From Rhodobacteraceae bacterium CG17_big_fil_post_rev_8_21_14_2_50_65_11 (GTDB lineage Bacteria > Pseudomonadota > Alphaproteobacteria > Rhodobacterales > Rhodobacteraceae): a stretch of 42,990 nucleotides of DNA. Both the position numbers and the translations under genes were made by a program. Positions 2,686 through 33,046 of the stretch are shown here, piece by piece. How positions within the stretch are numbered: position 1 is the stretch's first letter; every line of letters starts with the position of its first letter. The stretch is taken from positions 1-42,990 of the forward strand of contig PFEX01000236.1 in the NCBI GenBank assembly GCA_002783145.1. The letters run 5' to 3'. The notes beneath the pieces are model-generated. The model saw only the letters and a list, made by a program, of their open reading frames with translations, had not been told where the DNA came from and made no database searches.

Positions 2686-3693
2686 TCAGCCGCGCGGTGC
2701 GCCCTTGGGCTTGCCCGCGTGATAGAGTTTGTACCCCGCGATCTCGGCCAGCAGGGTGCCGGTCCCGAAATGCGCCTTCAGCGTCGTTTCATAGGGCAAA
2801 TGCCGGTTGGCGACCATGAAGAACTGGCCCGAGCGTTTCAGCATCCGCGCCGCAGACACGATGAAGCCCTGCCCGAGCGTCGGATCCGCCGCGCGGCCGG
2901 TGTGAAAGGGCGGGTTGGCGATGATCGTGTCATAGGGCGCGTCGGGGGTGAACCGTTCAGCATCGGCCCAGTGGAAGGCGGCGCGCGGGTCGGTCACGTT
3001 GGCCCGCGCCGCTTCAAGCGCGGCCCAGTCGGCCTCCACCAGGTCGAGCGCGGTGATATCCGCGTGTTCTGCCAGCAGAACGGCTGACATGTAGCCCCAC
3101 CCGGCCCCCAGATCGGCCACCCGACCGGTCAGTTGCGGCACCAGAGCAACCAGAAGCTCCGACCCCTGATCGGCACCATTGGGCGAAAACATGCCCGGCG
3201 CGGTGGCAAATCCATCGGCGTTCGGTTCGGGCGTGGCGCGCCAGCCCATCACCGCTTCCGGCAGGGCGTCGGGCCGGGTCAGCCAGAAAAGCTTGCCATG
3301 CGATTTTGACAGGACACCATCGACGGGCAGGTGTGTTCTTACCGCCTTGAGAATCGATTCGATCCCCTCATCCTTTTGCCCGTCCACGGCGACAATGCCA
3401 CCGGGCGGCACATGGACAAGCGCCTCTGCCACCAGCGACAAGCTTTCGGTCTTGCTTTTGACGATCTGCACGATGGCGGCGGTATAGTCGCCCTCCGGGG
3501 CCACTTCGACGGCCAGGCCGCGCGCCGCCAGCCGGTCATGCGCGGGGGCAAAGCCCTGAACCGCCACCAGCCTGTCGGGCCCGAGCGCGGAAAAATCGGC
3601 CTCCGCCTGCGCCCGCGGCACCAGCACGCGGCCATCCTGCGGCCACGTCATTTCGCCGTTTTCCAGCGCGAGGGTCCAACGATTCTGGGTCAT
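2686..3693 (-). CDS. Class I SAM-dependent methyltransferase, RsmC-like (16S rRNA G1207)
   Basis: VADLGAGWGYMSAVLL and IIANPPFHTGRAAD (NPPFH motif of RsmC/RlmG-type enzymes). Confidence 0.85.
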   Translation of the reverse strand: MTQNRWTLALENGEMTWPQDGRVLVPRAQAEADFSALGPDRLVAVQGFAPAHDRLAARGLAVEVAPEGDYTAAIVQIVKSKTESLSLVAEALVHVPPGGIVAVDGQKDEGIESILKAVRTHLPVDGVLSKSHGKLFWLTRPDALPEAVMGWRATPEPNADGFATAPGMFSPNGADQGSELLVALVPQLTGRVADLGAGWGYMSAVLLAEHADITALDLVEADWAALEAARANVTDPRAAFHWADAERFTPDAPYDTIIANPPFHTGRAADPTLGQGFIVSAARMLKRSGQFFMVANRHLPYETTLKAHFGTGTLLAEIAGYKLYHAGKPKGAPRG

Positions 3694-4874: not shown

Positions 4875-4942
4875 CGGGATATGGGGACGGGGATCTGTCG
4901 CCTTCACGGCGCGCGATAGAGCGCGCTGCGTGAAGACGGGGT

Positions 4943-5036
4943 GAGAGGTTGGACATCGACCCAAGCGGGGCTCGTTGTGGCTGCTACCTTCCGGTCCTGA
5001 CCAGGTTGGCGAGGCGCCTGCCCGCGCCAACCCCTC
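4943..5036 (-). ncRNA. ffs: Signal recognition particle RNA (4.5S, small bacterial SRP)
   Basis: Minus strand contains CTGGTCAGGACCGGAAGGTAGCAGCC (conserved SRP domain IV core); ends pair GAGGGGTTGG / CCAACCTCTC, giving a ~94-nt rod-like RNA. Confidence 0.92.
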
Positions 5037-5084
5037 AGCGCCGACATAAGGGATGCGTCGGGCGTCCGCAAGGGGTCGATCGGG

Positions 5085-6911
5085 TCACAGGGGCAGCGCG
5101 CAGCGCAGGAATCCGGCGTCGGTCCGGTCGAGCGGGGTCAGGCCAAGCACCTCCATCCTGGCCTTGTGCCGCAGGGCGCCGGGGCCGGTCTCATAGATCA
5201 CGGATGTGCCGGGAACGGGCACGAACCGCCATGTGTCATCGGTTTGTGGGGTCAGAGGCGAGGCTTGGGTGATATGGCGTGTCAGCACGTCGCGCACCGT
5301 GTCGGGGCTGGCGAGCACCGTTTCACTGCGCGCGGCTGCCGCGAAATGTCCGCCGCCCGCGGCGCGGTAGCTGTTCGTCACCACCAGAAATTCGTCGCCG
5401 TCATCCAGCGGGCGGCCCATGTGACACAGGTCTCGAATGCGGCCTTCGCCCGGAAAGGTCTGTGCGCCATCTGCGCTGTAGCGGGCCGGGGCAGTCACGT
5501 CGATACGGTAGGTCAGCCCGTGGATCACGTCGAAATTATAGCCCGAGAAATCCGGGTCGAGCAGGCTTTGTCCGTCCCGCCCCGGCTCGATCCGGTGAAA
5601 GGCGCTGGCCGCCCGGTCGAGCCAGTCGCGCAGATCGGCACCGGTGACGCGCAGCACGTGCAGGCCGTTGGGAAACCCATAAAGATCTGCGACATGGCGG
5701 ATCGACAACGGGCCTGCGGGAATGTCGGTGTAATAGCCCGGCCCGGCGCGCCCTCCCGCCTTGAACGGAGCAACAGCGGATAGCAGCGGCAGATGCGCAA
5801 GCGGGTGCCCGTCGAGTTGATGACGCGCAGCCGCCGCCGAGGCTTGCGCGATCAGGGTCAGGGCCGGGCCGTCGCCGGCCAGCGAAAAATAGGTTTCCAG
5901 CGGCACGTCCGTTGCGCCGAGCGGGCGGCGCACATGGGCCAGCGTGGCGGCGTGGCTGTCGGCGGACAGGTCTTGCAGCACGGGGTCCGGCGGGGCCTGG
6001 TCGCCCCGGTGCAGCCGTACCTCGGAGGTCGCAACCCGCCATCGGCCATCGTGGATCAGGTCGAACCGAATCTGTCCCAGATGCGACCCGAAGAAACCGG
6101 GCTGCACCACCGGCACGCCGTGGACCCGACCGGGTTGGTCGGGCGCCGGCAGGGTCTTGTGGGAGTGGCCGGCGATGATGGCATCGACCGCGCCGCTTGC
6201 GGCAAGCGGCAGAACCGCATTCTCCAGATCTGGGGTATCGACCTCGGCACCGACACCGGAATGGCACAGCGCGATCACCAGATCGGCGCCCCGGTCGTGC
6301 AACTCGGCGGCCTCGGCCCGCGCGCTGGCCACGATCGGGTGGGTTTGGACATGGCCGGTCAACAGGCGCGCGTCCCATTGCGTGATCTGCGGCGGCACGA
6401 CACCCAGAATCCCGATGCGAAGCGTCTGCGGCGTGCCATCCTCGGCGGTGAACACACGCGTCAGCACGCAGGAGCGGGGCAGCAGGCTTTCGCCATCTGC
6501 GCGGTCGAGATTGGCGAGCACGACCGGGAACGCCGCGTCGGCCAGCATCTCTTGCAGGAAGTCCAAACCGTAGTTGAAATCGTGATTGCCCAGCGTTGCG
6601 GCGTCATAGCCAAGCGCGTTCATTGCCGCGATCATCGGATGCGGCCTGCCAAGCCCGCCTTCGGCCGCGAGATCGCCCAGCGGCGACCCTTGCAGCGTAT
6701 CGCCGTTATCCAGAAGCAGGCAATTTCCCGCTTCGGCCCGCAGCTTGCGCACAACGCTGGCGACGCGGGCAAGGCCGGGATCGCCGCCCTCGGCATCGAG
6801 GTAATAGTTGTAAGACCGCAAATTCGCGTGCAGGTCCGTCGTTGCCAAAACCACGAAGGTCAGGCGCTGCCCATTCGCAAAGGCAGCGGGGTCTGCTGTT
6901 TTCGTCCCCAT
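5085..6911 (-). CDS. Bifunctional 2',3'-cyclic-nucleotide 2'-phosphodiesterase/3'-nucleotidase (5'-nucleotidase family, CpdB-like)
   Basis: TTDLHANLRSYNYY, DNGDTLQGSPLGD, LGNHDFNYGLDF, AGHSHK, and C-terminal VTNSYRAAGGGHF motifs. Confidence 0.9.
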   Translation of the reverse strand: MGTKTADPAAFANGQRLTFVVLATTDLHANLRSYNYYLDAEGGDPGLARVASVVRKLRAEAGNCLLLDNGDTLQGSPLGDLAAEGGLGRPHPMIAAMNALGYDAATLGNHDFNYGLDFLQEMLADAAFPVVLANLDRADGESLLPRSCVLTRVFTAEDGTPQTLRIGILGVVPPQITQWDARLLTGHVQTHPIVASARAEAAELHDRGADLVIALCHSGVGAEVDTPDLENAVLPLAASGAVDAIIAGHSHKTLPAPDQPGRVHGVPVVQPGFFGSHLGQIRFDLIHDGRWRVATSEVRLHRGDQAPPDPVLQDLSADSHAATLAHVRRPLGATDVPLETYFSLAGDGPALTLIAQASAAAARHQLDGHPLAHLPLLSAVAPFKAGGRAGPGYYTDIPAGPLSIRHVADLYGFPNGLHVLRVTGADLRDWLDRAASAFHRIEPGRDGQSLLDPDFSGYNFDVIHGLTYRIDVTAPARYSADGAQTFPGEGRIRDLCHMGRPLDDGDEFLVVTNSYRAAGGGHFAAAARSETVLASPDTVRDVLTRHITQASPLTPQTDDTWRFVPVPGTSVIYETGPGALRHKARMEVLGLTPLDRTDAGFLRCALPL

Positions 6912-30089: not shown

Positions 30090-30572
30090 TCAGATCAGCC
30101 CGAACTCTTCCATCACCTTCTGATAGATCGGGCGTTTGAACTCGACGATCACCGTCAACAGATCCTGTGCCGCCATCCAGCGCCAATCCGAAAACTCTAC
30201 GTCCTTATGGGCAAGGTCGATCACCTCGTCCGACGCGTCCATCCGCATCAGCACCCATTTCTGTTCCTGGCCACGAAACTTGCCGCCCCACCGCGTCGCG
30301 GCGATTTCCGGCGGGAAGTCGTAGGGCAGCCAGTTGGCGGTTTCGCCCAGAACGGTGACATGTTCCGCCTTGATACCGGTTTCCTCGCACAATTCGCGCA
30401 AGGCGGCATCGCGCTGCGTCTCGCCGGCCTCAACGCCCCCCTGCGGCATTTGCCAGGCGGGGCTGTCCATGTCGGCGCGCTGGCCGGCGAAGATCCGCCC
30501 CTCGCCGTTCACCAGAACGACGCCGACGCAGGGCCGGTAGGGGCGGTCATCGGGGTCCACCCCGGCACCCAT
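30090..30572 (-). CDS. rppH: RNA pyrophosphohydrolase (Nudix)
   Basis: YRPCVGVVLVNGEGRIFAGQR, Nudix box GGVEAGETQRDAALRELCEETGI. Confidence 0.95.
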   Translation of the reverse strand: MGAGVDPDDRPYRPCVGVVLVNGEGRIFAGQRADMDSPAWQMPQGGVEAGETQRDAALRELCEETGIKAEHVTVLGETANWLPYDFPPEIAATRWGGKFRGQEQKWVLMRMDASDEVIDLAHKDVEFSDWRWMAAQDLLTVIVEFKRPIYQKVMEEFGLI

Positions 30573-31891
30573 CAGCGCGGTCTGAGGGCGCGCAGCCCGT
30601 GCAGGATGTCGATGGCATAGGCCAGTTGGTAATCTTGCGCGCGCAACTCCGCCATTGCCTGCGCCTGTTCGCGTTCCTCTTGCAGCAAGCGCAACTGGTC
30701 CTCCGTCAGGGTGGAATTCGACAGCGCGCCGCGCAGGGATGCCTCGGTGCGGGCAGGGCCGAGGGGCTCCTCGACCTCGCCGATGTCGCGCTGTTCGACA
30801 AGAATGTCGGGCGCCACGCCAAGCGCCTGGATCGAGCGGCCCGACGGCGTGTAATAAAGCGAGGTGGTCAACCGCATGGCCCCGTCACCCTGCACCGGCA
30901 TCACCGATTGCACCGATCCCTTGCCGAAGCTGTTGGTGCCGACGACGACCGCTCGGTGGTGATCCTGAAGCGCGCCGGCGACAATTTCCGACGCCGACGC
31001 CGAACCGCCATTGATCAGCACCACCAGCGGCAATCCCTCGATAAGGTCGCCCGGCGTGGCGTTGTAGCGTTCGCCGTCGCCTTCGTTGCGGCCACGGGTG
31101 GACACGATTTCCCCCTGTTCGAGGAACGCGTCGGAGACCCGGATTGCCTACGTCAGCAGCCCGCCGGGATTGTTGCGCAGGTCCAGCACCAAGCCTTCGA
31201 GGTTCTCGATCCCGCCAACCTCATCAATCATCTCCTCGATGCCGTCGCGCAGGTTGGGATAGGTCTGTTCCGAAAAGCTGGCTATGCGCAGGATCGCGGT
31301 GTTGCCTTCCAGCCGGTTGCGCACGGCAGTCAGCTCGATCCGGTCACGCACGATGGCGATGTCGAAGGGCTCGTCCTCGCCCTCGCGCACCACGGTGATC
31401 ACGATTTCCGATCCGATTTCGCCGCGCATCAGGTCAACCGCCTGTTCCAGCGTCAGGCCAAGCAATGACTGGCCATCGACATGGGTGATGAAATCGCCCG
31501 CCTCGACGCCTGCCTCCATCGCCGGTGTGTCATCCATCGGGGTGATGACCTTGACGAAACCCTCTTCCTGCGTAACCTCGATGCCGAGACCGCCGAATTC
31601 GCCACGGGTCTGGGTCTGCATCGCCTCGAAATCGCGCGGCGGCAGGTAGGAACTGTGCGGGTCGAGCGAGGTCAGCATGCCGTTGATCGCGGCCTCGATC
31701 AGCCGGGCCTCGTCGACGTCCTCGACATAGTAGGTCCGGATGCGTTCGAAAACGTCGCCGAAGAGGTCAAGCTGTTCGTAGACCGACGTATTGCGCGCGT
31801 TCTCCTGTGCGATCAGCGGCCCGGCAACCTGCGTAGTCAGCAGAATCCCCGCTGCGGTGCCGCCGAGCGCCGCCATGATGAATCTCTTCAT
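30572..31891 (-). pseudogene. ctpA: C-terminal processing peptidase (S41, CtpA) interrupted by an in-frame amber codon at 31148-31150
   Basis: ORFs 31148..31891 (PDZ region, ...LDLRNNPGGLLT*) and 30572..31105 (GGSASASEIVAGALQ...SFGKGSVQSV catalytic part) are in the same frame; intervening codons read TAG GCA ATC CGG GTC TCC GAC GCG TTC CTC GAA CAG, i.e. *AIRVSDAFLEQ, where family members have Q-A-x-x-V-[SA]-D. Confidence 0.85.
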
Positions 31892-31903: not shown

Positions 31904-33046
31904 TCACTGATCTTGTGGCATGAACCAGTCGGTCGGGTCCACGGGCTCTCCAGCCTGTCTCAATTCCATATAAAGCGTTTGCGACAGATCTTCACTAGCC
32001 GCTTGTGGGTCTGCGACGATCAATTCTTCGCGGCTGGGGGTCTGACCGGGCATCAGCCCAACCGGATCGCCCGCGGATACGAGGTCACCGGCGCGCACGA
32101 ACATCTCTCCCATGCCGGCGAAAATCAGCAGATGGTCGCCCTGCGGTTCCAACAATGCGACATTGCCGTAGTCCAGGAGCGGCCCGGCATAGCGCACCGT
32201 CGCGTGCCACGGCGCGGTGACGAGCGCCCGCGGCTCGGCGATCAGGACCAGCCCCGGCCGGGTGATCCCTGCGGCATCGGCCTGACCATAGCCGTGTAAC
32301 ACACGGCCCCGAACCGGCAGCGGCAAGGCACCGCGCTGATCGGCGAAATCCGGCAGGCTGTTCATGCCGTCGCCCTGCACGTCGAGCGCCCGGATCGCGG
32401 TCGCGAAGCCGTCCAGCGACTCGGCGCTTTGGGTAAGGCGCATCAGCGCCTCGGTATCGGCGGCGACGCGGGGGGGCAGCGTTCGGCGGTCCGCCATCGC
32501 CTGGCTCAGCGCGACGCGCGCCTCCTGCACGCCGGTCAGCCCGTCGGAAAGCTGCCCCATTGCGCTGTCCTGAAGCGCGCGCAGCAGCGCCAGTTCTTCC
32601 AGCTGGCGACGCAATTCGCGCGCCTCGGCGGCAACGGCGGGGGTCACGTCGGACACGATCATGCCGGCGCGCGCGGTGCCAACCGGGCCTGTCGGGTGGA
32701 TCAGCAACAGCGGCGCGGGCACGGATTGCATGGATTGCAGCACACCCGTCAAACGGCCGAGCCGGCCCTGCTGCGCCTCGAACACGGCGGTGATGGATCG
32801 TTCGCGGATCGCCGCGCGCCGGATCCCTTCGCGCAGCGCGGCAAGCCCTTCCTCATAGGCGCGGATGGTTTCGGTCAGGGCATCGACCCTGTCCTGCGCG
32901 TCGGTGGCCTCGGCCATCGACAGTGTAGCGCGCTCCAGCATCTGGGCGGCGCGCTGCGCCGTGAGCGCCGGGTTCTCCGTCTGGGCCGGGGCCATGGCGG
33001 CGGCAAGGGTGCCAAGAAGGGCCAGAACCAGCGCCAGCCGCCTCAT
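31904..33046 (-). CDS. Murein hydrolase activator EnvC-like protein (coiled coil plus degenerate LytM/M23 domain)
   Basis: Signal peptide MRRLALVLALLGTLAAAMAPAQ; long coiled coil; C-terminal LytM-like fold VTAPWHATVRYAGPLLDYGNVALLEPQGDHLLIFAGMG; start inside the gpmI stop region (ATGA overlap). Confidence 0.85.
   Translation of the reverse strand: MRRLALVLALLGTLAAAMAPAQTENPALTAQRAAQMLERATLSMAEATDAQDRVDALTETIRAYEEGLAALREGIRRAAIRERSITAVFEAQQGRLGRLTGVLQSMQSVPAPLLLIHPTGPVGTARAGMIVSDVTPAVAAEARELRRQLEELALLRALQDSAMGQLSDGLTGVQEARVALSQAMADRRTLPPRVAADTEALMRLTQSAESLDGFATAIRALDVQGDGMNSLPDFADQRGALPLPVRGRVLHGYGQADAAGITRPGLVLIAEPRALVTAPWHATVRYAGPLLDYGNVALLEPQGDHLLIFAGMGEMFVRAGDLVSAGDPVGLMPGQTPSREELIVADPQAASEDLSQTLYMELRQAGEPVDPTDWFMPQDQ

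Follow-up and report, generated by a model that had tools for sequence, protein, structure and literature searches.

How does a gene shared by nearly all members of a bacterial family come to carry a stop codon ahead of its own catalytic residues, and does the cell obey that stop, read it as an amino acid, or not possess it at all? The window, by which we mean the whole stretch of 42,990 nucleotides analysed here (contig C85), raises this question in the gene for the cell-wall-related S41 C-terminal processing protease CtpA. On the minus strand, positions 31150..31148 read TAG at codon 248 of 439, preceded by ...DLRNNPGGLLT and followed in the same frame by AIRVSDAFLEQGE..., and the sequence is CtpA-like on both sides, so that the claim of the initial annotation, an in-frame amber that splits CtpA upstream of its catalytic residues, is borne out. 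TAG aside, the frame is continuous from an ATG at 31891 to a TGA at 30572. The two open reading frames in question, 31148..31891 (247 aa) and 30572..31105 (177 aa counted from a GTG, the frame being open from 31147), do lie in the same frame, and in a Pfam profile search a single S41 domain (PF03572) is divided by the stop, with positions 2-46 ahead of it and 48-165 beyond it. The 5' part of ctpA (31151..31891, minus strand, 247 codons) encodes an N-terminal hydrophobic signal, judged from the sequence, followed by a CtpB_N-like domain (PF22694), a PDZ domain matched by PDZ families, and the start of the S41 domain; the 3' part (30572..31147, minus strand, 191 codons plus TGA) encodes the remainder of the latter (E = 1.3e-36). 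The combination of an S41 domain and an N-terminal PDZ that marks a CtpA gene is therefore present and spans the stop. The gene aligns with those of relatives over residues 1-439, at up to 93%, with this one stop inside.

The residues of the Ser-Lys(-Gln) catalytic apparatus are all present in the gene frame, and all of them are located 3' of the stop. Ser299 (codon at 30995..30997, minus strand) was placed through the motif GGSASASE, the 25-residue Ser-Lys spacing and an alignment to 7rpq, Lys324 (30920..30922, minus strand) through the motif SFGKGSVQ and the spacing, and Gln328 likewise by motif and spacing. The frame of an active enzyme would run through these residues without interruption, and here it is broken at codon 248. 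The earlier statement that the N-terminal product keeps the PDZ domain and lacks the Ser and Lys can thus be refined to the loss of Ser299, Lys324 and Gln328. The closest solved relatives of the window protein are the carboxyl-terminal proteases 7rpq and 8sxe, with homology over residues 39-437. These two and the CtpA of P. aeruginosa share its domain order over near full-length homology, and the window's downstream half contains the SASAS and FGKG motifs, whereas its frame is cut by a TAG ahead of the catalytic residues. Stops within strongly coding frames were very rare when 1.48 Mb of the window's assembly was scanned by codon usage, and the two frames are therefore not a chance juxtaposition.

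Comparison with relatives, which the initial annotation had proposed as a check, identifies what the codon replaced. Among 109 aligned relatives, drawn from named and unnamed collections with some genomes in both, codon 248 is CAG in 87, CAA in 20 and GAA in 2 (Gln in 107, Glu in 2, a stop in none), and TAG is found in the window only; this pattern fits well with one nonsense substitution in a codon for Gln, as first suggested. Relatives of the same genus, the named ones being Nioella species and isolate W635, have CtpA proteins 88-93% identical to that of the window, and all of their genes are intact. A ctpA match was found in 390 of the 397 Rhodobacteraceae genomes surveyed, and among the matches listed in this survey and in two follow-up searches the window genome is the only one with a stop inside the gene. 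Interrupted ctpA genes of any kind number three where placements were listed, which was for part of the survey, and all three are in drafts 76-85% complete. Besides the window, these are G027 (L145, G027:C193), with a frameshift-like split at residue ~264 near locus position 1175, and G360 (L205, G360:C230), where a frameshift or indel falls somewhere in residues 80-105 (between locus positions 2517 and 2579). Like the window's, these two genes are otherwise intact, with one interruption in a draft less than 90% complete; their lesions are a frameshift or small indel elsewhere in the gene, whereas the window's is a nonsense codon. No other S41 gene is recognisable in the window's draft. We give a probability of about 92% to the reading that a lone nonsense point change interrupts a single-copy ctpA gene with no other damage.

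No further damage is seen around the stop. Near ctpA, the genes gpmI, envC, NUDIX, methyltransferase and pip run without interruption in comparison with relatives, among them the intact envC-like M23 gene immediately upstream (31907..32989, minus strand) and the intact NUDIX (RppH-like) gene downstream (30090..30572, minus strand). Changes assigned to the window lineage by polarisation with two outgroups amount to 20 synonymous and 4 nonsynonymous 5' of the stop, and to 29 and 5 3' of it. Judged from these counts, purifying selection on ctpA persists 3' of the stop. The relaxed selection or further decay past the stop that would characterise a pseudogene was not seen, given the ratio of 29 to 5 and the absence of a second lesion. 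An intact 3' frame without further damage implies that the stop is either recent or an artefact absent from the organism.

The quality of the draft bears on this choice. The assembly, probably a metagenome-assembled genome of Nioella, consists of 244 contigs with 81.9% completeness and 4.35% contamination. A codon-usage scan with orientation-corrected training, which detects stops and not frameshifts, covered 1.48 Mb, or about 48% of the draft, and returned two clear stops within conserved frames, in ctpA and in a DUF5930-M23 gene, plus one in a gabD remnant. The second internal TAG is at 5742..5740 on the minus strand of L183 (G000:C179), in a gene at 4888-6291 encoding DUF5930 and Peptidase_M23; Glu occupies this position in the closest relatives. 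Of 60 genomes tested for DUF5930, 54 contain it, and a full-length match interrupted by a stop occurs solely in the window's draft; this draft has four M23 matches, and the second amber falls in one of them. The third TAG, at 1796-1798 on the minus strand of L286 (G000:C75), lies in a truncated gabD-like N-terminal remnant that is fused to unrelated sequence and has no match in five genomes of the genus. The remaining candidates were set aside as true gene boundaries by their surrounding sequence, for example L191:734, directly before a gene starting MKLYSYWRS. A control scan of the same kind with stricter thresholds, over 1.53 Mb of loci from 80 relatives, gave no internal stop, its five candidates all being ordinary gene boundaries. 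Under the draft's codon usage nonsense changes make up ~2.5% of random substitutions, and two nonsense codons would correspond to ~80 random changes in the scanned stretch, or ~6e-5 per base, by our own arithmetic and with wide Poisson limits. The draft seems to carry an excess of nonsense codons.

Amber suppression or partial reassignment, by which the cell would decode TAG as an amino acid and make full-length CtpA, might be suggested by the intact and conserved 3' half of ctpA, by the internal TAG in a second conserved gene, and by the ~18% of the genome that is missing from the draft, where a suppressor tRNA gene could sit. Yet the proposed search for such a tRNA came back empty in the draft, with a CUA anticodon in none of 33 tRNA genes; 32 of these anticodons were read by ARAGORN, and the last tRNA, truncated at the end of its contig, shows the anticodon loop of tRNA-Asn (GTT) on visual inspection. 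A 95-base tRNA-Leu(caa) reported by ARAGORN at 2979-3073 of the window lies antisense to an ORF, has no counterpart among the RF00005 matches and was judged a probable false positive. Reassignment should leave internal TAG codons in numerous conserved genes and few genes ending in TAG, whereas two clear cases and one remnant are found in 1.48 Mb, and TAG terminates 57 of 506 strongly coding segments, in some cases with the next gene directly after. The window's own pip ends in TAG, as had been pointed out. RF2 is complete. Loss of RF1 was considered, since a full-length prfA was not found in the draft, but its C-terminal fragment sits at a contig edge, which cuts the gene. Moreover, relatives differ between the two amber sites, with Gln at one and Glu at the other, and TAG is expected in 57% of random nonsense changes with the draft's codon usage. 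The initial annotation's view that general amber reassignment is unlikely agrees with all of this, and suppression or reassignment of this TAG is unsupported; an 82% complete draft leaves it a very small residual probability. Programmed or structure-driven readthrough conserved in the lineage would profit from the open frame 3' of the stop, but is already contradicted by the lack of a stop in all 109 aligned relatives, and the local RNA fold is no stronger than that of shuffled sequences (z = -0.02); it is the least credible of the readings weighed here.

Two polypeptides that jointly form a working protease, made either by a restart at GTG 31105 or from a genuine split gene, are hardly more credible. 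The GTG (31103..31105, minus strand, Val 263) is the closest potential restart codon and is preceded by a purine-rich stretch, AGGGGGAA. This stretch, however, consists of codons for a conserved Gln-Gly-Glu, and the start is not conserved, the Val being encoded by GTG, GTC or GTT in relatives, with GTC or GTT in several close ones. In addition, a restarted product would have no signal and so would not get to the periplasm. As for a split gene, two separate proteins divided at codon 248, which the initial annotation had regarded as a sign against a simple nonsense change, occur in none of the relatives listed. Of the four options that it left side by side, suppression and two-polypeptide reinitiation gain no support, and an artefact and a recent nonsense mutation both remain.

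The feature is thus an ordinary nonsense codon, and what is left to weigh is whether it exists in the organism. An erroneous base in the consensus, or one taken from a minor strain in a mixed and incomplete bin, has somewhat better than an even chance. It is slightly favoured by the 81.9% completeness and 4.35% contamination, together with a second amber in a near-universal gene and none in the control loci, and again slightly by the fact that the ctpA genes of G027 and G360 are likewise interrupted in drafts less than 90% complete; the apparent excess of nonsense codons in the draft points slightly in the same direction, over a fixed null. A recent real null of ctpA is a serious contender, if short of an even chance. 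The stop lies well inside the 43-kb contig, away from its edges, and ctpA is dispensable in the alphaproteobacterium Zymomonas mobilis (PMC13101528), which makes a real null quite possible. If the TAG exists in the cell, translation would stop after residue 247, and the exported truncated product would retain the PDZ domain without the Ser-Lys-Gln catalytic residues; in the absence of these residues the allele would be a CtpA null. Peptidoglycan hydrolases would then be likely to accumulate.

Known CtpA systems offer a measure for such a loss. In Z. mobilis a truncated CtpA arose under salt selection (PMC13101528), and the salt-evolved gene resembles that of the window in the loss of its C-terminal half, residues 289-459 there and 248-439 here. 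The effect of the Z. mobilis truncation was confirmed by deletion and complementation (PMC13101528), whereas the window allele is known from a draft consensus base alone. In P. aeruginosa CtpA degrades the M23 endopeptidase MepM, and deletion of mepM suppresses several, not all, of the ctpA phenotypes (PMC6050968); MepM is also a CtpA substrate in Z. mobilis (PMC13101528). One may guess that CtpA also acts on the DUF5930-M23 protein. Were both ambers real, the lineage would have lost CtpA together with one of its likely targets, a DUF5930-M23 peptidoglycan endopeptidase, in a natural counterpart of the Pseudomonas genetics, which we regard as improbable. The match between the ctpA and M23 double amber and the Pseudomonas epistatic pair is one pair noticed post hoc, and we treat it as a coincidence. 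Co-loss of CtpA and DUF5930 across genomes is confounded by incompleteness: the 97% complete family member G166 has a match to neither, G027 with its broken ctpA keeps DUF5930, and the other drafts without ctpA are incomplete.

The amber in ctpA should accordingly be taken neither for recoding nor for a split protease; its main value lies in cautioning users about the annotation and quality of the draft bin. If both ambers are real, the lineage would offer a natural case of the loss of CtpA and a peptidoglycan endopeptidase, in which the relation between CtpA and M23 enzymes could be tested in Rhodobacteraceae.
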